Of a stretch of 64,000 bases of DNA, positions 9,947 through 19,784 are shown in pieces. This stretch comes from Candidatus Pyrohabitans jungbluthii (lineage in GTDB: Archaea > Hydrothermarchaeota > Hydrothermarchaeia > Hydrothermarchaeales > BMS3B): positions 62,001-126,000 of the forward strand of contig MTMD02000014.1 of the NCBI GenBank assembly GCA_002010065.2, written 5' to 3'. Position 1 is the first letter of the stretch, and each line of letters starts with the position of its first letter. The notes under the pieces are model-generated. The model made no database searches. It saw only the letters and a list, made by a program, of their open reading frames with translations, and was not told where the DNA came from. The translations under genes and the position numbers were made by a program.

Positions 9947-12900
9947 TCAGTCCAGCTCTTCAAAGCCCTGCATGATCTTCTCATGTATCTCCTTCCTATC
10001 CTCAAAGCTCAGCTTATCCTTGAACCTCCTCAAAAACCTCATCAGCTCCCTGCCCACCTCCTTCTTAGTGGTGCTCTTCCTGCTCCACCCCTGGAATAGC
10101 TTCCCCTTTTCCACGAGCTGCTGAACAAAACCTTTTACATCTTGAATTAGCTCCTCAGCTTTGCTCAGCCTCTCCTCCAGCACCACAAGCATTAGATACT
10201 CGTGCTCGCTGAGCTTGAGCCTCTTCTTCCTCTCCTCAAGCTCAATGAGATTTTTAACCTCCTTCTCAAGCTGTGAGTAAGCCTCCTCTATCGCTAACTT
10301 CCTCTGCTTCCACTTTTTTATTATCCTCTCCACCCTCTCGGCGATGGGCTCATACACCGGGTTGCTCGCCTTGTCAACGAGCACGTACCTGTTTAGGGTG
10401 AAAATCATGTCGTATATCTTCGCCTCAGCATCGCCATAGGCTTTGCTCAGCTTCTCCAAGTAATCCTCATCCAGCCTGAGAATTGGGAACTCCTCTTTTA
10501 TCCTGTCAACCTCAATGCTTCTGTGTATCGCCTCAAGCGTCTTGGGGTAGTACTCCTCTACTTTTTCTCTCACCACCAGAGCTTTAGGCTCCTGCTCGGG
10601 GTACTCTGCCTCCTCACTGGGGTCTCTCCTCTTTGCGTATCTGCTGTAGGCGATGTAAACCTGAGTTAGCCACCCGAAGCGCGAGGCATGCTGTGCCTTA
10701 ACCGGATGAGAGCCCAGAAACTCAAAGAGGTTTCTGAGCTTTCTGTAGTTTTTGAGAAAGAGCTTTGCCTTTTTTTCATCCTTAGCTAATAATTTTACAG
10801 CAGACATCAGCGTAGCCCTGTCGTCTTTGCCCTTATCAATCCCCTGGAATATCTCCTCTGTGTCCCCAAGAAGTGTGACGAACTCTTGAGCCTTTTCATC
10901 GATGCTTATGAGCACCCCTTCAACGTCTTGCTTCTCGTAGTCTTCTAAGGCTTTCTCGAATTCTGCGAGAATGCCCACGTAGTCAATAATCAGCCCCGCT
11001 TCTTTAACGCTCCTGTACGGGCGGTTGGTTCTCGCCACCGATTGGAGAAGCCTGTGCCCTTTCAGTGGCTTGTCCAGATACATAACCTGTAGCACAGGTG
11101 CATCGAAACCCGTGAGTAGCATGTCGGTAACCACGAGTATCTTGGGCAGCTTGCCATTTTTGAACTTCTCTACAATCTCCTCCTTTATCTCCCCCACATC
11201 CTTGCCCGGGAACCTCTCTCTAAGCTCCTTAAGGTAGTCAGAGATAATCTTTTCCTTCTCAACCCTGTTGTAGGTCATCACCACCTCAACATAGCCTTTC
11301 GGTAAAAGCGTGTCCAACTCCCTCTTGTAGTGCACGCATGAAGCTCTATTCACCGCCACAACCATGGCTTTAAACTTCCCGTCCACCTCCCGCAAAAAGT
11401 GCTCTGCAATATCGCTGGCGACCCTCTTTATCCTTCTCGGATTGGAGAGCACCACCTTAATTTTGTCCAGCTTTCTGCTTATCTTCTTCTCCACCTCTTC
11501 CTTCAGCTCTTCAGGAATTTCCTCCTCTTCATACTCAAGAAAAGCCCTGAGGAGGTTTTTTCTCAGCACTATGTCGCTCTCCATCCTCGTTTGAAAGACT
11601 ATGGGCAGGGTGAAGCCGTCCTTCAGCGAGTCGAGAACAAAGTACTTGTGCAGGTAGAGCTCTCCTTTATCTGGATAGGCAAACTCCAAAAAGGTGTCTC
11701 TCCCCTTCTTTGATATGGGCGTACCCGTGAAAGCAAAGAAGAAGGCGTTTCTAAGTATGTTCTTCATCTGCGAGGCAAGGAGACCGTACTGAGTGCGGTG
11801 TCCTTCGTCTATGAACGCTATAACGTTCTTCCTTGTTGCTATCGTCTCTCCTAAGCCCTGCGCTTCCAGCTCTCTGGCAAGCTCCTCAAGCTCCTTAGGC
11901 TGGAACTTGTGGATAAGGGTGATGAATATCCCCCTCTTTCCTCGCCCGGAGTCGTGGCTCAGCACCTCTCTCAGCTTGGCTATGGAGTCTATCACCTCCG
12001 GCTTTATCTCCACATCGAGTGCTGAAAACTCCTGCCTGAGCTGCTCCTGAAGCTCCACTCTATCGACAACGAAAAAGATGGTGGGGTTCTCTAAGCTTCT
12101 GTGCCTGTACAGCTTGAGCGCCGCGAATATCATTGTCAGCGTCTTTCCGCTGCCCTGCCAGTGCCACACTAGCCCGTGGTTTCTTTGGTCTTCTCCCCTC
12201 AGGTTGCGGAGCACCCTCTCGTAAATCATGTTCGCAGCTTCGTACTGCATGTATCTGGGCAGCACCTTCGTTATCCTGCCCCTCTCTTCCCTCACAAAGG
12301 TGAAGTTCGCCAGTATGTCCAGCAGAGTGCGCCTCCGCAGCATCTCCAGCGTCGCCTCAAGCTCGTCCAGCTCACCAGCGCGCCAGCGGTATATGCTTAC
12401 CTCGTCTGCCTCCCTCACATTGGGGAAGTACCTCGCCTCCTGCTCCGCGGCGATGCTGAACTGCACATATTTAAAAAGCTCGGGCACCGTGCTCTCATAC
12501 TCCTTGACCTGCCTGTAGGCATCCCGCCATGAGACGCTTGCATCCGCAGGATTCTTGCACTCTATCAGCACCAGAGGCATGCCGTTAACGTATAGCACAA
12601 GGTCGGCTCTTATTCTCTCAGCAGCACCCTCAAAGCTCACCTGCCTGCTCACCACAAACTCATTCTTTGCAATATCCTCTAAGTCAACCAAACGAGCAAG
12701 CATCAACTCCCTGCTCTTCTCCAGCTTTATCCCCACACCCCGCCTGAAAAACCTCAGAAACTGCCTCGTGCCATGTATAGACGCGGGCAGGCTCTTTAGC
12801 TCCACAAGTATCCTGTTTATGTCCCCCTCTGTAAGCTTCTCCCCGTTTATCCTCCTCAGAGCACTGGCTAAGCTCCTCTCCAGCAGGGGCTCAGCCAAGC

Positions 12901-13003
12901 TCTCCCTCTCTAACGCCTGCGCTGGCACAAAGCGCCAGCCCTCTTCCACGAGTTTTTCAATGATGTAGTCCTCGACGGCGCTCTTCTCGGTGAAGGTGGG
13001 CAT
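9947..13003 (-). CDS. hsdR: Type I restriction enzyme R subunit
   Basis: Motor and nuclease subunit of the type I restriction-modification complex; it translocates DNA and cuts away from unmethylated sites. The N-terminal nuclease domain has D134...ECK148-150 (PD-(D/E)XK). The SF2 helicase core shows Walker A WQGSGKT (about 283-289), DEGH box 399-402, a TGTP motif III and QSVARTNRPYR motif VI. The C-terminal helical domain is intact. At 1018 residues it is full length with no interruption. The start overlaps the HEPN gene by 47 nt. It is GC-richer than the HEPN/hsdS/rhomboid block upstream. Confidence 0.97.
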   Translation of the reverse strand: MPTFTEKSAVEDYIIEKLVEEGWRFVPAQALERESLAEPLLERSLASALRRINGEKLTEGDINRILVELKSLPASIHGTRQFLRFFRRGVGIKLEKSRELMLARLVDLEDIAKNEFVVSRQVSFEGAAERIRADLVLYVNGMPLVLIECKNPADASVSWRDAYRQVKEYESTVPELFKYVQFSIAAEQEARYFPNVREADEVSIYRWRAGELDELEATLEMLRRRTLLDILANFTFVREERGRITKVLPRYMQYEAANMIYERVLRNLRGEDQRNHGLVWHWQGSGKTLTMIFAALKLYRHRSLENPTIFFVVDRVELQEQLRQEFSALDVEIKPEVIDSIAKLREVLSHDSGRGKRGIFITLIHKFQPKELEELARELEAQGLGETIATRKNVIAFIDEGHRTQYGLLASQMKNILRNAFFFAFTGTPISKKGRDTFLEFAYPDKGELYLHKYFVLDSLKDGFTLPIVFQTRMESDIVLRKNLLRAFLEYEEEEIPEELKEEVEKKISRKLDKIKVVLSNPRRIKRVASDIAEHFLREVDGKFKAMVVAVNRASCVHYKRELDTLLPKGYVEVVMTYNRVEKEKIISDYLKELRERFPGKDVGEIKEEIVEKFKNGKLPKILVVTDMLLTGFDAPVLQVMYLDKPLKGHRLLQSVARTNRPYRSVKEAGLIIDYVGILAEFEKALEDYEKQDVEGVLISIDEKAQEFVTLLGDTEEIFQGIDKGKDDRATLMSAVKLLAKDEKKAKLFLKNYRKLRNLFEFLGSHPVKAQHASRFGWLTQVYIAYSRYAKRRDPSEEAEYPEQEPKALVVREKVEEYYPKTLEAIHRSIEVDRIKEEFPILRLDEDYLEKLSKAYGDAEAKIYDMIFTLNRYVLVDKASNPVYEPIAERVERIIKKWKQRKLAIEEAYSQLEKEVKNLIELEERKKRLKLSEHEYLMLVVLEERLSKAEELIQDVKGFVQQLVEKGKLFQGWSRKSTTKKEVGRELMRFLRRFKDKLSFEDRKEIHEKIMQGFEELD

Positions 13004-13976
13004 TTTTAGTCACTCTTTTTAGATGTTTTTCTAATTCTACATCAAAATTTTTGATTATATTACCTAAAATTATAAATATTTTGTCTAAAGAATCTACTAT
13101 GCCAAGTCCTGGCTTATAATCTGTTGGCTTAAGTTTTCCATCTGGATACCTCGTATATGAAAAATGTGGATAAGTAATTACAGATAATATAAAAATACAA
13201 CCAGAAATTCCAAAGAGTTTAATTATTTTATCTATATTTTCATGAGTATAAGTTAAATTTCTGTCTATAGAATTCAATTCATGTTCGGGTAAATTTACCT
13301 TTTTTAGATTTTTAAGTAAATCTATTTTGAATTTTTTTATAGTTTTGCGGAGCTGTCTTATATCCACATTTTTATCAATTTTAATGAATTTTTTACATAA
13401 CTCTAAATAAACATAAATTTCATTTTTATCCATTTTTGCTAATCGTTCTGGTTTACGTTCTATGTATTTTTTTAGTTTATCTATATCAGATTTATTAATT
13501 TTCTTTTTCAAATAATTGCATTTATTCAAACAATCAATTACCTTTTCCATATTATTAAGAAATATAAAAAATGTTCTCGGCGTAATATGGCTGATAGTTT
13601 TATTTTCATCATTCTTCCTAAATAATTTGGTTAATAAACCACCTTTTATTTCTTTTTTCCTGCCGTATAAGTCATTCTTTTTGATGATGCCTAAATATAG
13701 GCCATATCCTTTGGAAATTTTCTCTACAGCTTGCTGTAAATGATATACTGACAATGACCAAATTTTTTCTTTACTTAATAATTTTGCTGCTTTATAATCC
13801 TCTTTTGCACAATATAAAAGAGAAGAAATATATTCTGCATTTCTAATATGTGTTTGGTTATGAATATATTTTTCAAGGTATTGATATAGCTCTAACACGT
13901 CTTTTAAACTAATATTTAGGCCGGCAGTTTTATTTGCAGTATTAATCGCAACTTGAATAGCCTTAATATTTGTCAA
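12957..13976 (-). CDS. HEPN-domain protein inserted in the hsd operon
   Basis: A 339-residue protein. Residues 55-95 (AKEDYKAAKLLSKEK...YHLQQAVEKISKGY) are a textbook first half of a HEPN domain. Residues about 265-320 (YPHFSYTRYPDG, then a two-helix end) match the HEPN second half. About 150 Lys-rich helical residues separate them. RNLTYTH (239-245) is an R-X5-H that could serve as an RNase-type HEPN motif. HEPN proteins are RNases or toxin partners in many defence systems; the role here is inferred. Translation is coupled: its start overlaps the hsdS stop (ATGA), and its end overlaps hsdR. It is strikingly AT-rich. Confidence 0.8.
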   Translation of the reverse strand: MTNIKAIQVAINTANKTAGLNISLKDVLELYQYLEKYIHNQTHIRNAEYISSLLYCAKEDYKAAKLLSKEKIWSLSVYHLQQAVEKISKGYGLYLGIIKKNDLYGRKKEIKGGLLTKLFRKNDENKTISHITPRTFFIFLNNMEKVIDCLNKCNYLKKKINKSDIDKLKKYIERKPERLAKMDKNEIYVYLELCKKFIKIDKNVDIRQLRKTIKKFKIDLLKNLKKVNLPEHELNSIDRNLTYTHENIDKIIKLFGISGCIFILSVITYPHFSYTRYPDGKLKPTDYKPGLGIVDSLDKIFIILGNIIKNFDVELEKHLKRVTKNAHLHREERRRGLHH

Positions 13977-15736
13977 ATTTTCACCCTCCTTCTCCCTGTG
14001 AGCAAATCATTCATCAACCCCTTCTTAATCCTCTCTAGCTTCTCCTTTCGCTTCTTCTCCAGCTCCAGTTTTTTGTCCATTGTGCTCAGGATTTCGGCGA
14101 TTTTTTGTTGTTCGGGAAGGGGTGGAAGTGGGATTTTAAAATTCTTTATAATTCTAACATTTAATTGTGGCTGAGCAGTACCATACGCAATCCTCTTAAT
14201 TTGAGTTTTAAGAAAAGGTGTTCTAAAAAGTAAACATAGGAATTTGTTATCAATATTTTTATTTTTGTTTCTAAGGATGACCATTCCTGAGTTTATTCGT
14301 ATGTGTTCATAGGGCACATTATCATCATAATATCCAACATTTCCAATTGTTCCACGAGTGGTTAAAACAATATCGTATCTTTTCAATTTTCCCTTGCCCA
14401 TTTTAGAATCTTTTTCTTTAGAAATGAATTGAGTTTCTGTAAATTTAAATCCACTTTCGGTAACATTTTTTGCATTTAAAAAGAGACAAAATCCTTTATT
14501 CGAAAAATCTGATTGTTTAGGATAATTCACTCCCCTATCTCCATCTATTACTTCTATATTGGCATGTACTAGCCTAACCACCTCCCATTCCTCTGGAATC
14601 CTACCAATCTCGGAATCCTTAAATTTTCTATATTCTCCCTTCAAAAATTGCTCAAATGTTATGGCATGTCCACCAAATTCAGTGGTTACTAATCTCAGAT
14701 TTTTGTCATTGCTTACAAGAATTAGATTATTTTTAATGGAAGTTTCGGCTATTAGTGCATCTCTTATTTGATTTTCTTTTGTTTTTTTTCCAGTTTTTTC
14801 ATCTAATTCTTGAAGCTTCAATAATATTCTATCATATAAATCTCCTTCACCAAATTTTGAATTATCCCATCTAGAAATGTCGAAAACTGTTGTTTCTGTC
14901 AGAATTACGTTTTGTTCTAATTTTTTAAAAATTTCTAAAAGATTGCTTCTTCTTTCTAATTTCTCAGTTTTTTTAATGTTTTCAATTTCATCTTTTTGAA
15001 TGTGTGTAATGTAATAGTTATATTTGGTAGGGAGTTGATCCACACTTATTTTACCGTCTAATATGGCATCAAATATATTAGTATCAAACATAAAACCATT
15101 AATAATTCCTTTTGTCAAAAGCTCCTGCATCAAGCCCCTCTTCAGCCTCTCAGTCTTGGCTATGACGGCGCTGACTTTCTGGATGGCATTGTCCACCGTG
15201 CTTAAGATTTCGGCGATTTTGTGTTGTTCTGGGAGTGGTGGAAGGGGGATTAGGAGATTTTCTAGGTTTTTTCTACTAATTCTTGACCTTGTTGCCCCTG
15301 CTGATAATCTCATTGCTTCTGCTAATATCTTGGGACTATTTAAAATATATACTAGGAATCTTTTATCTACTCTTTTTTTATTTACTTTAAGTATTGTAAT
15401 ATCTACAGCAACAATATAAGGATAGGGAAGTTCTGGAGCAATGCATGCTCTCCCTATTGGTTCAGGCATTCTTGAAATTAAAATATCCTCTTTTGGTCGC
15501 ACAAAAGTACAACTTAGTTTTTTTGCTGAATCATATGAAATAAATCTATTTGATTTATCTAAAAATCTACCTATTCCAATATCCCCAACTTGTAAGAGTC
15601 TAACACCCTCAGAAGTATAATATTTTTTAAGTATCCAATCACCATCTTTTAACTTTCCAATTTCCTTATCCCCAAGCCTCATAACCTCCCAATCCTCTGG
15701 GATTTCTCCGATTGGGGTTTGCTTAAATTTTGTCAT
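13973..15736 (-). CDS. hsdS: Type I specificity subunit HsdS with internal PIN nuclease domain
   Basis: DNA-recognition subunit of the type I system, 587 residues instead of the usual 400-450. The normal parts are two target-recognition halves: residues 1-212, opening with IGEIPEDWEVMRL and ending in the LPPLPEQHKIAEILSTVD dimer helix, and residues 369-587, opening with IGRIPEEWEVVRL and ending with LPPLPEQQKIAEILSTMD. Between them lies a complete PIN domain (separate entry). TRD sequence is AT-rich, conserved helices are GC-richer. Start ATG 15736 overlaps the rhomboid stop; the stop overlaps the HEPN start. There is no frameshift: the fusion is open throughout. Confidence 0.95.
   Translation of the reverse strand: MTKFKQTPIGEIPEDWEVMRLGDKEIGKLKDGDWILKKYYTSEGVRLLQVGDIGIGRFLDKSNRFISYDSAKKLSCTFVRPKEDILISRMPEPIGRACIAPELPYPYIVAVDITILKVNKKRVDKRFLVYILNSPKILAEAMRLSAGATRSRISRKNLENLLIPLPPLPEQHKIAEILSTVDNAIQKVSAVIAKTERLKRGLMQELLTKGIINGFMFDTNIFDAILDGKISVDQLPTKYNYYITHIQKDEIENIKKTEKLERRSNLLEIFKKLEQNVILTETTVFDISRWDNSKFGEGDLYDRILLKLQELDEKTGKKTKENQIRDALIAETSIKNNLILVSNDKNLRLVTTEFGGHAITFEQFLKGEYRKFKDSEIGRIPEEWEVVRLVHANIEVIDGDRGVNYPKQSDFSNKGFCLFLNAKNVTESGFKFTETQFISKEKDSKMGKGKLKRYDIVLTTRGTIGNVGYYDDNVPYEHIRINSGMVILRNKNKNIDNKFLCLLFRTPFLKTQIKRIAYGTAQPQLNVRIIKNFKIPLPPLPEQQKIAEILSTMDKKLELEKKRKEKLERIKKGLMNDLLTGRRRVKI
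14082..14137. repeat. Direct repeat A, copy 1 (in hsdS)
   Basis: Imperfect direct repeat of about 56 nt sharing ATTTCGGCGATTTT and nearby GTTGTTC and GGTGGAAG with 15198-15252. Both encode the LPPLPEQ(H/Q)KIAEIL helix. Such internal homology is where TRDs of hsdS are commonly exchanged. Confidence 0.8.
14573..14626. repeat. Direct repeat B, copy 1 (in hsdS)
   Basis: Imperfect direct repeat sharing ACCTCCCA, TCCTCTGG and CTTAAATTT with 15677-15730. Both encode the IG(R/E)IPE(E/D)WEV segment that opens each target-recognition half. Confidence 0.75.
14633..15100 (-). other. PIN-type RNase domain embedded in HsdS
   Basis: Residues about 213-368 of HsdS form a full PIN fold. The acidic quartet is present: D218 in MFDTNIFD, E250 after the second strand (ITHIQKDEIE), D326 in IRDALIAET and D344 in LILVSNDKNL. 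PIN domains are Mg-dependent RNases, typically VapC-like toxins. The insertion falls exactly in the linker where HsdS proteins normally run from LLTKGI straight into the second TRD. Met216 (ATG 15089-15091) begins MFDTN like a stand-alone PIN protein, so independent translation from inside hsdS is possible, though no well-placed ribosome site is seen. Confidence 0.88.
15198..15252. repeat. Direct repeat A, copy 2 (in hsdS)
   Basis: Second copy of the repeat at 14082-14137, same orientation, encoding the central conserved helix of HsdS. Confidence 0.8.
15677..15730. repeat. Direct repeat B, copy 2 (in hsdS)
   Basis: Partner of 14573-14626 at the 5' end of hsdS, same orientation. Together with repeat A it brackets the first TRD plus the PIN insert. 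Confidence 0.75.
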
Positions 15737-16686
15737 CTTAAAAGCCTCCGGCTCAATTTTTCACATATCTGATAAAGTTGTGGTATCTTCTCCATGACTG
15801 AGGGTACAATCACACCAAAACAAAAGCCAACATAATGTGCCAATATGTTAATCAAGTTGGTACCTCTTCGTATTTCAGAAGGTATTAGATTTGGTAGGGA
15901 AAATAGATAAACTATAGCTATTACAAAAACTCCCACTCTATAAGATAAAATAGGCGGGTGATTAACAAGCTCTTTTAGTTTTTTGAGATAGTGAATAGAT
16001 ATTTTTTGCATGGTTTTAAGATTGATTAAAAGAAACACAATTGAAATAACAGCCAATAGTACTTTTATATGTATTGGTGTGCCTAAATTAATAATTCCCA
16101 CTATTGAGAGATTTACAAGGATAAGAAAGCTAAAAAATTCTGCTTTTACTGAGAGAGTTGATACCTTCTTTAAATAATTATAGACTGCAAAAATAAAATA
16201 ACCTATCAAACCAGAAACAATTGCAGAAAAACCACTTATTTTGGGGATGTTTGGCGTAAAAATAATGTTACTTAAAGAAGATACAAAAGGTAAAATAATA
16301 AAAATTAAAAATGATGATACATAAAAGATTTTCTTATTTGTCTCAACATTGAATATCAAAAAGATTATAAGAAAATATGTGATTATGTTGCTTAAAAAAT
16401 GTTTATACTCTAAATGGGTGTAATGGGAGAGGAACATAGTTAATATCGTTGGGTTTGAGACTATTAAGGTAAAAGATTCCTTCATATCTGGAGGTAATGA
16501 ATATATTAATACGAGGATTCCAGGCAAGATCAAGAAGAAAAGCAAAAAGTCATACAGATTCCAGATAACCAGGACTGGATTAAGTTTTATCACTTTTTCA
16601 ATACATTTCCTTTTGACCAAATAATCTCCAAAAACGCCAAGTAATTGCCAAATAATTGCCAAGTTATTTGAGGACATAGTGGACAC
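15733..16686 (-). CDS. Rhomboid-family intramembrane serine protease
   Basis: Multi-spanning membrane protein of 317 residues with all rhomboid landmarks: HFLSN (H96xxxN100) corresponding to the GlpG oxyanion His/Asn pair, catalytic Ser154 in GFSA, and catalytic His284 in AHYVGFCFG. Six or more hydrophobic helices are visible, plus an extra pair between Ser and His. It should cleave transmembrane or membrane-attached proteins. It lies between the AlbA-type ATPase and hsdS, overlapping both (23 nt and 4 nt), so it is part of the restriction operon. It is AT-rich. GTG 16686 is used; ATG three codons later is an alternative. Confidence 0.88.
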   Translation of the reverse strand: MSTMSSNNLAIIWQLLGVFGDYLVKRKCIEKVIKLNPVLVIWNLYDFLLFFLILPGILVLIYSLPPDMKESFTLIVSNPTILTMFLSHYTHLEYKHFLSNIITYFLIIFLIFNVETNKKIFYVSSFLIFIILPFVSSLSNIIFTPNIPKISGFSAIVSGLIGYFIFAVYNYLKKVSTLSVKAEFFSFLILVNLSIVGIINLGTPIHIKVLLAVISIVFLLINLKTMQKISIHYLKKLKELVNHPPILSYRVGVFVIAIVYLFSLPNLIPSEIRRGTNLINILAHYVGFCFGVIVPSVMEKIPQLYQICEKLSRRLLR

Positions 16687-18016
16687 CTCGTCCCTTCCCT
16701 CTTACCTGAAGAATGCCCTTTGCGACCAGCTCATTCAAATCAAGCCTGGCGCCTTCATCTGAGAGTCCAGAGAGTTCTCTATATTCCCTATTCGTAATCC
16801 TCCCCTTCTCCTTTACGTACATCACCGCCTTGATCTGCCTTTCATTCAATCCCAGGCTGCGGAGGTATTCTTCTGTGTAGATGTCCTTTCTGAAGATCAC
16901 CCAGAAGCCCCGGCGCTCCTCAAACTCGGGCTCAGGAAGCGATGCGCTGAGGCAGGCTTTTCTCATCTTGTCTATGCCGGAGCCCCACTGTTCGATTAGC
17001 CCCATGTCGTAGAAGACTCCTGCGATGCCCTTGTTTCTGAGTACTGAGGAGTGGGGTTTGTAGAGGTCTTCGATGGTGATGCCGTAGGGTAAGCCTCCAG
17101 GGCTCCACACTACAAGCCTGTCGTCGTATATCCTGATTTCAACGCTGGCAGGGATGGTGTAGTCCCTGTGGCAGACGGCGTTGATAACCGCCTCCCTCAA
17201 AGCTTCCAGAGGATATTCCCAGACCTCCTCCCTCTGGGGTTCGCCTGTCATCACAAAGCTTACGCTGATGTGCTTGCGAATAAAGTCCATTGCTTCGTCC
17301 ACCTGCTCAATTACTGTGCCGCCTATCATGCGGTCGTCGATTATCGTGGTTTCTCCTCTGAACCTGCCGCAGTGCACCGTCGCTTGAGAGAGAATACGCT
17401 GAGGTTCTCTGCCGAAGAGAAGCAAAGCCGCCCAGGTGGGCTGATTGTCTTTTATCAGGTCTAACTTTTCAAGAACCTGAAGGTGGTCTTCGTCCTCGGA
17501 GATATTCCTCCTTCCTGCGCTGTTGGCTCTCTTTATATATCTTTTTACCTTCTCGGGGTCTATATCCTCCAAGGTTGCGTCCCTCGCTGGGAGCTTGTCC
17601 CAGCTCATCCCAGCGGAGGCGAAATGCACCTGGGCAATCTCCTGGGGCTGCATAGCTCTGTTGCTGTTTCCCACCCTTCTGTAACATCTTCCTCGCACAG
17701 ATACCGGCTTGATTGGAAACTCTTTAATCGTTATAACAACAACCTTTTTCCCATCTGCCTCCTCAAGCTCAACCTCAGGGATAACTCTCGGCTCTGTGCT
17801 CTGAGAAATCTGATTTGCCCACTCTCGCAGAGTTTCTTTTCCGATATCCACGCCCTTAATCTCGCCGCTGTCGGAGACGCCTATGATTATTGCCCCACCC
17901 CTTGTGTTGGCAAAGGCTCCGGCGGTGACGATTACCTCCCTGTTGAAGTATTCCTTAAATTCGACGGTATCTGACTCTCCTTTACTTATTAGTTCATTTA
18001 AATCCACCATCACCAT
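16664..18016 (-). CDS. AlbA_2/Schlafen-type ATP-binding winged-helix protein (COG2865)
   Basis: Predicted DNA-binding ATPase of a kind repeatedly found in type I restriction loci. The N-terminal AlbA_2/Schlafen domain (about residues 5-120) includes SDTVEFKE and FANTRGGAIIIGVSD. A GHKL-like HATPase domain follows with EALREAVINAVCHRDY and VVWSPGGLP...GSGIDKM. The C-terminal winged helix (RITNREYRELSGLSDEGARLDL) completes the architecture. ATG 18016 (or 18010) opens 23 nt inside the hsdM end, so translation is coupled. Composition is GC-rich like hsdM, unlike the rhomboid gene that follows. It may sense or signal the state of the complex; this is inference. Confidence 0.9.
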   Translation of the reverse strand: MVMVDLNELISKGESDTVEFKEYFNREVIVTAGAFANTRGGAIIIGVSDSGEIKGVDIGKETLREWANQISQSTEPRVIPEVELEEADGKKVVVITIKEFPIKPVSVRGRCYRRVGNSNRAMQPQEIAQVHFASAGMSWDKLPARDATLEDIDPEKVKRYIKRANSAGRRNISEDEDHLQVLEKLDLIKDNQPTWAALLLFGREPQRILSQATVHCGRFRGETTIIDDRMIGGTVIEQVDEAMDFIRKHISVSFVMTGEPQREEVWEYPLEALREAVINAVCHRDYTIPASVEIRIYDDRLVVWSPGGLPYGITIEDLYKPHSSVLRNKGIAGVFYDMGLIEQWGSGIDKMRKACLSASLPEPEFEERRGFWVIFRKDIYTEEYLRSLGLNERQIKAVMYVKEKGRITNREYRELSGLSDEGARLDLNELVAKGILQVRGKGRGVHYVLK

Positions 18017-19784
18017 TAAACCCCAGCTCCGCCAGATAATCCTCAATCTTCTCCTCTACGCTGGCGATCTCCCTCTCTATAGCCCTGAGCTCTTCCCACT
18101 CCTTGGCTACGTCTATCTCCTCAAGCTCCTCCTGCGGGAAGACGTAGAGGGTGACGTTGAGGTTGAAATCGTTCACTTTAATCTCATCAAGGCTCACAAC
18201 CCTTGAAAATCCGTCCCCGTCCTTGAATTCTCTATATGCCTGGGCTATCTTTGAGATGTGCTCCTCGCTGAGGCGGTTGAGCTTCCTCACCTCGGGGTGC
18301 TGCTCGTACTCCTGAGAGGCGTTGATGAATAGCACCTTACCCCTTCGCTCTTCAGGCTTGTTCTTGTTGAAGATAAGCACAGCGCCTGGTGCACCAGTGT
18401 TGTAAAACAGCTTCTCAGGGAGCAGAATCACACACTCTACTAAGTCTTCCTCCAGCGCCCTCTGCCTTATGGCTCGCTCTTTGCCTCCGCGGAATAGGCA
18501 ACCGTTGTCAATAACCACGCCTACCCTACCCTTTTCGTCATCTGCGCTCGCCAGCATGTGCTGAATCCATGCCCAGTCTGCTGACTGCTTCGGGGTAAAG
18601 CCGTACTTGTACCTCTCCCTCCAGAAGTCCGCCTTTTTTAAAACGCTCTCGTCGTAACCGTCCTGATTCCATGGGGGATTTGCTATAACCACGTGGAATT
18701 TCTTAAACATGCTGTCCTGGAGAAACTTTGGATAGATCAGGGTATCACCCTGCCTAAGCTCTGCATCCCTAATATCGTGAATGTAGAGGTTCATCTTGCA
18801 CAGCGCCAAGGTAGTGGCGTTGGCTTCCTGACCGTAGAGGAAGAGCCTCTTTGCCTCCTCTGGACCGTGCTTCTCCTTAACGTGGTTGTAGGCGAGGATG
18901 AGCATGCCTCCAGAGCCACAGGCTGGATCATAAACTTCCTCTCCCGGCTTGGGATCGAGAATCTCAACCAGTAGCTTTATAACCTCCCGTGGGGTATATA
19001 CCTCGCCCTCCTTTGCCTTCTGCGGTGCAAAATAGCGCAGAACCCATTCGTAGGCGTCGCCTAAAATATCCGGCGAAACATGGTGGAGTTTTCTGGCGCT
19101 GAATAGCTCAACAAGCTGCCTGAGAATCTCAAAGTTCTCAGTGCTGCTGGTGAACTGAAGAAAGTCTGCCCTGTCAACGACGTCTTTAAGCTCCGGGTTG
19201 CGCTCAGCGATAACCTTAAGCGCCTGGGAAAGCTTCACAGGTAGCTGGTTCACATCCCTTCTGATATTCTCCCACAGGTACTCCTGGGGTATATCAAAAT
19301 CGTGGTAATACTTGCTCTTCGCCTCCTCCCTCGCCTCTTCTTCGGTTAAACCATCGGCAAGAGCTTCCCTGTAAGCCCGCTCGTACTCCAGCTCCCACTT
19401 GTCGCTTATCCTCTTGAGGAAGAGGAGAATGAGGATAAACTTGTAGTCCACCCTGGTTCTTATTAAATCTGCCGCCTTCTTTAGAAGACTCTCCAGCTCC
19501 TCACGGGTTAGCTTCTCTCCGGGGGAAAGTCCCTCTCTGATTATGTCCCTCTTGCTCTTCAAGATATACACCCGCCTTCTGGCGTCGGCTTCGTCTATTC
19601 TCGCTTCAAGCCAGCCCGCTTTCCTAAGCTCTGAGAGGATTACGTTAATGTTATTCTTAGGGTCTTTAAACCTCTCCCTCAATACCCGGTAGGCATCTTC
19701 TCTTGTAAAAGCTTTTTCTTGGAACACTTCAAAAAGGGCTTCGTGCCTTACTTCGAGCCACCTGGGGAGTGTAATTTCACCCAT
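17994..19784 (-). CDS. hsdM: Type I DNA methyltransferase HsdM with N-terminal winged helix
   Basis: N6-adenine methyltransferase subunit that protects host sites. Residues about 12-75 form an additional winged-helix-like segment (AFTREDAYRVLRER...ILSELRKAGWLE), ahead of the standard HsdM N-terminal helical domain (91-215). SAM-binding motif I is DPACGSGG (286-293) and catalytic motif IV is NPPW (369-372). The C-terminal coiled region is complete. First gene of the eight-gene minus-strand operon: a TATA-like element lies about 25 nt ahead of ATG 19784, implying a leaderless message. Confidence 0.96.
   Translation of the reverse strand: MGEITLPRWLEVRHEALFEVFQEKAFTREDAYRVLRERFKDPKNNINVILSELRKAGWLEARIDEADARRRVYILKSKRDIIREGLSPGEKLTREELESLLKKAADLIRTRVDYKFILILLFLKRISDKWELEYERAYREALADGLTEEEAREEAKSKYYHDFDIPQEYLWENIRRDVNQLPVKLSQALKVIAERNPELKDVVDRADFLQFTSSTENFEILRQLVELFSARKLHHVSPDILGDAYEWVLRYFAPQKAKEGEVYTPREVIKLLVEILDPKPGEEVYDPACGSGGMLILAYNHVKEKHGPEEAKRLFLYGQEANATTLALCKMNLYIHDIRDAELRQGDTLIYPKFLQDSMFKKFHVVIANPPWNQDGYDESVLKKADFWRERYKYGFTPKQSADWAWIQHMLASADDEKGRVGVVIDNGCLFRGGKERAIRQRALEEDLVECVILLPEKLFYNTGAPGAVLIFNKNKPEERRGKVLFINASQEYEQHPEVRKLNRLSEEHISKIAQAYREFKDGDGFSRVVSLDEIKVNDFNLNVTLYVFPQEELEEIDVAKEWEELRAIEREIASVEEKIEDYLAELGFNGDGGFK

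Follow-up and report, generated by a model that had tools for sequence, protein, structure and literature searches.

The window, by which we mean the whole 64,000-nucleotide stretch of Candidatus Pyrohabitans jungbluthii DNA that was analysed, contains a type I restriction-modification (RM) operon in the order hsdM, AlbA_2 ATPase, membrane protein, hsdS::PIN, HEPN, hsdR and YgjP-like peptidase (the last named by eye), in which genes overlap. On the minus strand, hsdM (17994..19784, 596 aa; N6_Mtase and HsdM_N) encodes a protein 68% identical to the HsdM of three related loci, denoted L068, L067 and L033. It is followed on the same strand by a gene for an AlbA_2/Schlafen-type ATP-binding protein (16664..18046, 460 aa; SLFN_AlbA_2 and HATPase_c_4), whose counterpart in L033 is 28% identical, and by one for a multi-pass membrane protein (15733..16686) that is 54% identical in L068 and shows a weak rhomboid/rhombosortase similarity, under the curated cut-offs. 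The membrane protein gene overlaps hsdS::PIN (13973-15736, minus strand, 587 aa) by 4 nt. Between hsdS and hsdR, and overlapping both, lies a gene for a HEPN-domain protein (12957..13976, minus strand; Pfam HEPN 26.3 bits versus a cut-off of 22), in which a convincing catalytic RX4-6H motif is not obvious by eye. The hsdR gene (9947..13003, minus strand, 1018 aa; PADLOC REase_I, E 6e-117) is intact. The genes for the membrane protein, HsdS-PIN and the HEPN protein have a GC content of 25-37%, and hsdM, AlbA_2 and hsdR one of 51-52%; over window 13000-16500, where the three AT-rich genes lie, the range is 23-37%. Because this AT-rich block sits inside an operon of about 51% GC, the middle of the operon looks like an exchanged module. 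No VapB-type antitoxin gene adjoins hsdS::PIN, whose neighbours in the window encode the membrane and HEPN proteins, and no ABC-ATPase joined to HEPN, as in PrrC, is found between hsdM and hsdR of this operon.

The product of hsdS::PIN is a complete type I specificity subunit with two target recognition domains (TRDs), whose halves are separated by a 155-residue PIN domain lodged in the short linker. Its frame is open from an ATG start with no internal stops. The first half (15101..15736, minus strand; Methylase_S/Specificity_I) comprises TRD1 and the conserved helix D1, the PIN domain occupies residues 213-368 (14633-15100, minus strand), and the second half (13976..14632, minus strand; Methylase_S 381-569 and alignment to 1yf2) comprises TRD2 and the conserved helix D2. 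When the whole 587-aa protein was scanned with Pfam, Methylase_S was found in two stretches flanking the PIN domain (E 3e-53), and PADLOC called both halves a type I specificity subunit. It is on these two Methylase_S/TRD repeats, together with an operon that includes hsdM and hsdR, that the protein is assigned as an HsdS. A full-length AlphaFold model (pLDDT 52.5) was too poor for placing the domains or judging burial of the active site. Its reasonably confident parts are helix D1 (residues 169-208, mostly pLDDT 77-90) and the start of the PIN domain, whose first strand begins at residue 214, after the end of D1 at 208.

The site of the insertion can be read from HsdS proteins that are "empty" there. 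In a phmmer alignment, the halves of the Methanocaldococcus jannaschii HsdS (1yf2), 6-208 and 213-424, align to the two HsdS repeats, and since the first half ends at 208 and the second resumes at 213, the natural linker is about four residues long. In three archaeal relatives (G057, G034 and G005), the stretches that match window residues 1-211 and 369-587 are separated by only a few bases. The junction in L068 reads LLTNGIGHEKFKDSKVGRIPEEW, versus LLTKGIING-[PIN]-LKGEYRKFKDSEIGRIPEEW in the window. The halves of the window HsdS are about 40-45% identical to related archaeal HsdS proteins. The insertion is precise, and by sequence comparison the flanking HsdS has suffered no visible loss. The initial annotation, which placed a PIN block between two TRD halves without disturbance of the frame, is borne out by the open ORF and by the fit of the linker site to the 1yf2 alignment. 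Linker insertions appear to be rare in HsdS proteins, because none was seen among the 44 listed plasmid HsdS records with at least 80% coverage or among 10 viral-contig HsdS.

We find that the inserted block is almost certainly a PIN domain. Scanned alone, the block scored above the Pfam cut-offs for both PIN (PF01850, 25.5 versus 23.6 bits) and PIN_4 (PF13638, 23.5 versus 21.9 bits); in the scan of the whole HsdS protein, both scores fall slightly under the cut-off. An AlphaFold model of the block built from 11 relatives (pLDDT 72.6, pTM 0.73) matched VapC-type PIN proteins and a minimal protein-only RNase P (Foldseek E 1.5e-5). In direct comparisons it gave a VIA Z of 12.6 with PAE2754 (1v8o; rmsd 2.6 over 120 residues) and of 12.2 with the VapC of VapBC2, and a profile of the clade to which the block belongs matches 1y82, AF0591 (1o4w) and VapC4 by sequence. 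The same annotation had proposed a PIN fold with four acidic residues, and both the profile and the fold searches recover one. D218, E250, D326 and D344 are all present at the positions it gave and are invariant in the 11-sequence alignment. The three aspartates are kept in all 16 clade copies and E250 in 15 of them, while the fused copies (6 of 6) keep all four. The clade is further marked by a THIQxDE motif and a PTExxVxxxSR hairpin. Together, these matches and the model support a PIN nuclease domain with an intact predicted active site.

A search with the block against 84,980 species genomes returned 10 relatives, and five further copies came from profile searches of about 1,700 genomes, which with the window makes 16 PIN copies in total. 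Six of these are HsdS-PIN-HsdS proteins; the others are free genes, of which two lie in type I operons and eight elsewhere, outside recognisable type I operons. The carriers of the fused form besides the window are an Omnitrophota member (L003), Mesoaciditoga of the Thermotogota (L004), a member of the Actinomycetes (L006), a Moranbacteria member (L008) and an Asgard archaeon (L033). The initial annotation suggested searching for other HsdS proteins with a PIN domain; the search yields these five, and in all of them the insert is at the same place. Of the two free genes in type I operons, the one in Planctomycetota (L010) directly follows hsdM and overlaps its end, and the one in Moranbacteria (L037) lies downstream of hsdS-hsdR-YgjP-like-Mrr_cat. 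The clade is rare and its distribution patchy across phyla, and it was not found in 22 other genomes of the window's phylum. We also considered a phage or plasmid origin for the block; phage, plasmid and IMG/VR collections gave no match in searches that reach moderately close relatives only. At 7 of the 10 free copies no small ORF abuts the PIN gene, so these copies have no VapB-like partner; three small ORFs seen beside free copies elsewhere are not recognisable antitoxins.

Several other features of these loci may be recorded here. DUF3800 proteins are encoded beside RM genes in two HsdS-PIN loci (L004:10338-11051 and L008:3020-3724), and an ORF in a third (L006:9558-10244) resembles DUF3800 by eye. 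In the Asgard archaeon, the AlbA_2 gene and hsdS::PIN are separated by a gene of 418 aa (L033:1803-3059, minus strand) that matches the candidate defence family PDC-S54 (E 1e-161). A hairpin of about 20 residues, PTExxVxGVSKxxxCKxGxGVK, is triplicated in the Moranbacteria copies L008, L009, L011 and L037, and single in other members.

Comparison of the fused copies bears on how often the fusion arose. The fused PIN domains are 40-63% identical to one another and the TRDs mostly 15-37%, while the D1 helices are 43-67% identical among the five fusions with like HsdS. Such a pattern, with TRDs less alike than the PIN domain and D1, is what swapping of TRDs on a conserved core would be expected to produce. 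The Moranbacteria fusion (L008) stands apart. Its HsdS is of a different type from the other five, it has the triplicated PTExxVxxVS hairpin in common with free Moranbacteria copies, and its PIN domain groups with those copies in the tree (support 84/97). These three points make either a second fusion or a release in Moranbacteria likely, and the fusion probably occurred at least twice. A free archaeal copy (L005) groups with the window and L003 (support 80/92). Tree supports are weak overall, and the PIN tree does not demonstrate a single origin of all fusions. The proposal that the domain was once a free-standing gene stands in so far as free homologues exist, but the argument from Met216 as its former start codon fails, as the free ORFs begin upstream of FMFDTN. 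Met216 is a beta-strand residue within FMFDTN, at a position that is M, I or L in the free genes, and the AAAGGA upstream of it codes for part of the conserved linker TKG.

Related operons suggest that the linker may hold more than PIN domains. In L068, from the same family as the window, the operon is alike (membrane protein as above, HsdR 49% identical) and the HsdS linker is empty; a nucleotidyltransferase/HepT (MntA/HepT-like) toxin-antitoxin pair lies between hsdS and hsdR (L068:2744-3374, minus strand). In L067 (G021:C13), from the same class, hsdM is directly followed by a free PIN gene of another family (L067:4198-4797, plus strand) and then by a gene for a 528-aa protein without a Pfam match. 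The HsdS of this locus (L067:6373-8061, plus strand, 562 aa) holds in its linker a domain of about 145 residues that is not PIN. It contains RPDIIIHKRNTDINLFAIEVKKR (RPDIII...LFAIEVKK), a PD-(D/E)XK-like signature, and weakly matches the PD-Lambda-3 A, Mrr_cat and TnsA-like profiles; phmmer found no match for it in the PDB. By motif and weak profile matches, we regard it as a putative REase-like, PD-(D/E)XK-like domain. In the Asgard locus the linker holds PIN. One hsdM lineage therefore includes operons in which the slot is empty (L068), holds a PIN domain (L033 and the window) or holds an apparently REase-like domain (L067). RNase or toxin modules are common in these operons, namely HEPN in the window, the MntA/HepT-like pair in L068 and the other free PIN in L067. 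We tentatively suggest, rating it below an even chance, that effector nuclease domains in general can dock in the inter-half linker of HsdS (PIN in six lineages, PD-(D/E)XK-like in G021), and that the resulting "armed" type I complexes would not only restrict DNA but also carry a further nuclease activity of their own. On this slot view, more armed RM systems could be sought simply by looking for HsdS proteins of about 540-620 aa whose two halves are separated by a domain.

What might a PIN domain do inside a specificity subunit? Alongside its complete PIN domain, HsdS keeps two intact TRD halves, and HsdM and HsdR are intact as well. Split and circularly permuted S subunits, with breaks in the conserved centre, are active (PMC3874165), and because S subunits work when broken or permuted near the linker site, HsdS-PIN would be expected still to assemble with HsdM and HsdR. 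The PIN domain could then be a dormant VapC-like ribonuclease whose activity is suppressed through its packing in the M2S(R2) complex, which would stand in for the missing antitoxin. If a phage disabled or dissociated the complex, or if restriction were overwhelmed, the PIN domain would be exposed and would cut tRNA, rRNA or mRNA, and translation would stop. The outcome would be a second-line, abortive defence analogous to that of PrrC in EcoprrI. The EcoprrI operon encodes PrrC, an RNase that the RM complex keeps silent until the T4 anti-restriction peptide sets it free (PMC3874165, PMC12707154, PMC3710099). By this analogy, an anti-restriction sensor, an option raised in the initial annotation, is plausible, and to a latent RNase guard in the type I complex as such we would give not quite an even chance. 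Recurrence of the architecture, the kept catalytic residues and the free clade genes in two type I operons (L010 and L037) speak for the guard, as do the lack of a VapB-like partner at seven of ten free copies and the frequency of RNase or toxin modules in related operons. Against it speak the eight free members outside such operons, which imply that the clade is independent of RM complexes, and the fact that some PIN domains lack catalytic activity or process RNA without being toxic.

The main rival of the guard is that the domain acts as a direct antiviral RNase, switched on in a complex bound to unmodified DNA and cutting RNA close to the invading DNA, be it transcripts or R-loop RNA; a single recognition event would then hit both DNA and RNA. 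It would suit such a role that the PIN domain is attached to the subunit that recognises DNA and not to HsdR, as would the REase-like domain at the same place in L067, which fits a linker that positions a nuclease at its target. However, free members of the clade have no DNA reader attached to them, and we know of no PIN protein of such size that acts as a direct antiviral RNase; we consider this reading unlikely. Next comes an addiction module, in which HsdS-PIN without HsdM is an active toxin and loss of hsdM is toxic, so that the domain would stabilise a mobile operon rather than guard it against phage. A toxin-class domain with no separate antitoxin gene beside most copies, the patchy spread across phyla and the AT-rich block of membrane protein, hsdS::PIN and HEPN genes within a 51% GC operon are all in keeping with this. 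Yet addiction normally keeps a stable toxin apart from an unstable antitoxin, and here toxin and DNA reader form one chain and are lost together; the idea also overlaps with the guard model, and we think it somewhat less likely again. Lower still we place a passenger or spacer, a domain without nuclease function at a site that HsdS can tolerate. Most HsdS proteins lack any insert, and S subunits, which withstand being broken or permuted in their conserved centre (PMC3874165), could accommodate such a passenger, but it would leave unexplained why all four acidic residues are kept in six of six fusions across phyla, why at least two fusion events are likely and why a second, nuclease-like domain occupies the same slot. 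An assembly chimera or a recent fusion error in this genome, an alternative named at the outset for which we found nothing in favour except that the closest operon from the same family (L068) has no such domain, can be set aside, as five independent assemblies share the architecture with its catalytic residues kept, the frame is open and the block lies about 76 kb into its contig (C14).

Type I RM systems are regarded as acting against DNA only, and the classic RNase guard, PrrC, is a separate protein. That HsdS-PIN recurs in five microbes only distantly related suggests a second weapon that is part of the system itself. If the guard reading is true, having the RNase within the DNA-recognition subunit would amount to PrrC-type coupling in a single chain and would be a new way of silencing a PIN toxin without an antitoxin, and the idea of a guarded restriction enzyme would become testable by a single point mutant (D218A).

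Several known systems resemble parts of this arrangement. In the literature searched, of which coverage is incomplete, we found no description of PIN with HsdS or a specificity subunit. The nearest case is the HsdS-ASCH fusion of Methanohalophilus (PMC7641849), likewise an accessory domain fused to HsdS and likened here irrespective of the position of the fusion, except that ASCH is a proposed nucleic-acid reader and not a nuclease. RNase genes are also embedded in RM operons as HEPN toxins (PMC3710099), and the window operon has a HEPN gene as well; the portion of that survey consulted describes HEPN fused to REases, helicases and ATPases, not methylases, and does not describe PIN inside HsdS. 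As in canonical HsdS (1yf2), the window protein has two TRDs and two conserved helices, but the linker of about four residues is replaced by a nuclease domain of about 155. With VapC of VapBC it shares the PIN fold and the four acidic residues, and VapC is among the best structural matches; unlike VapBC, it belongs to a distinct clade (THIQxDE and the PTExxVxxxSR hairpin), is fused into HsdS and sits in an hsd operon without a VapB-like partner. There may also be a functional likeness to PrrC/EcoprrI, in which an RNase is coupled to a type I (there type IC) RM complex and forms a second line after restriction is defeated (PMC3874165, PMC12707154), as we suppose could be the case here. PrrC, however, is a separate ABC-ATPase-HEPN protein, whereas the putative RNase of the window is of the PIN type, is part of HsdS itself and comes with no ATPase. 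The parts are of known kinds, and their combination and its site are new within the literature searched.
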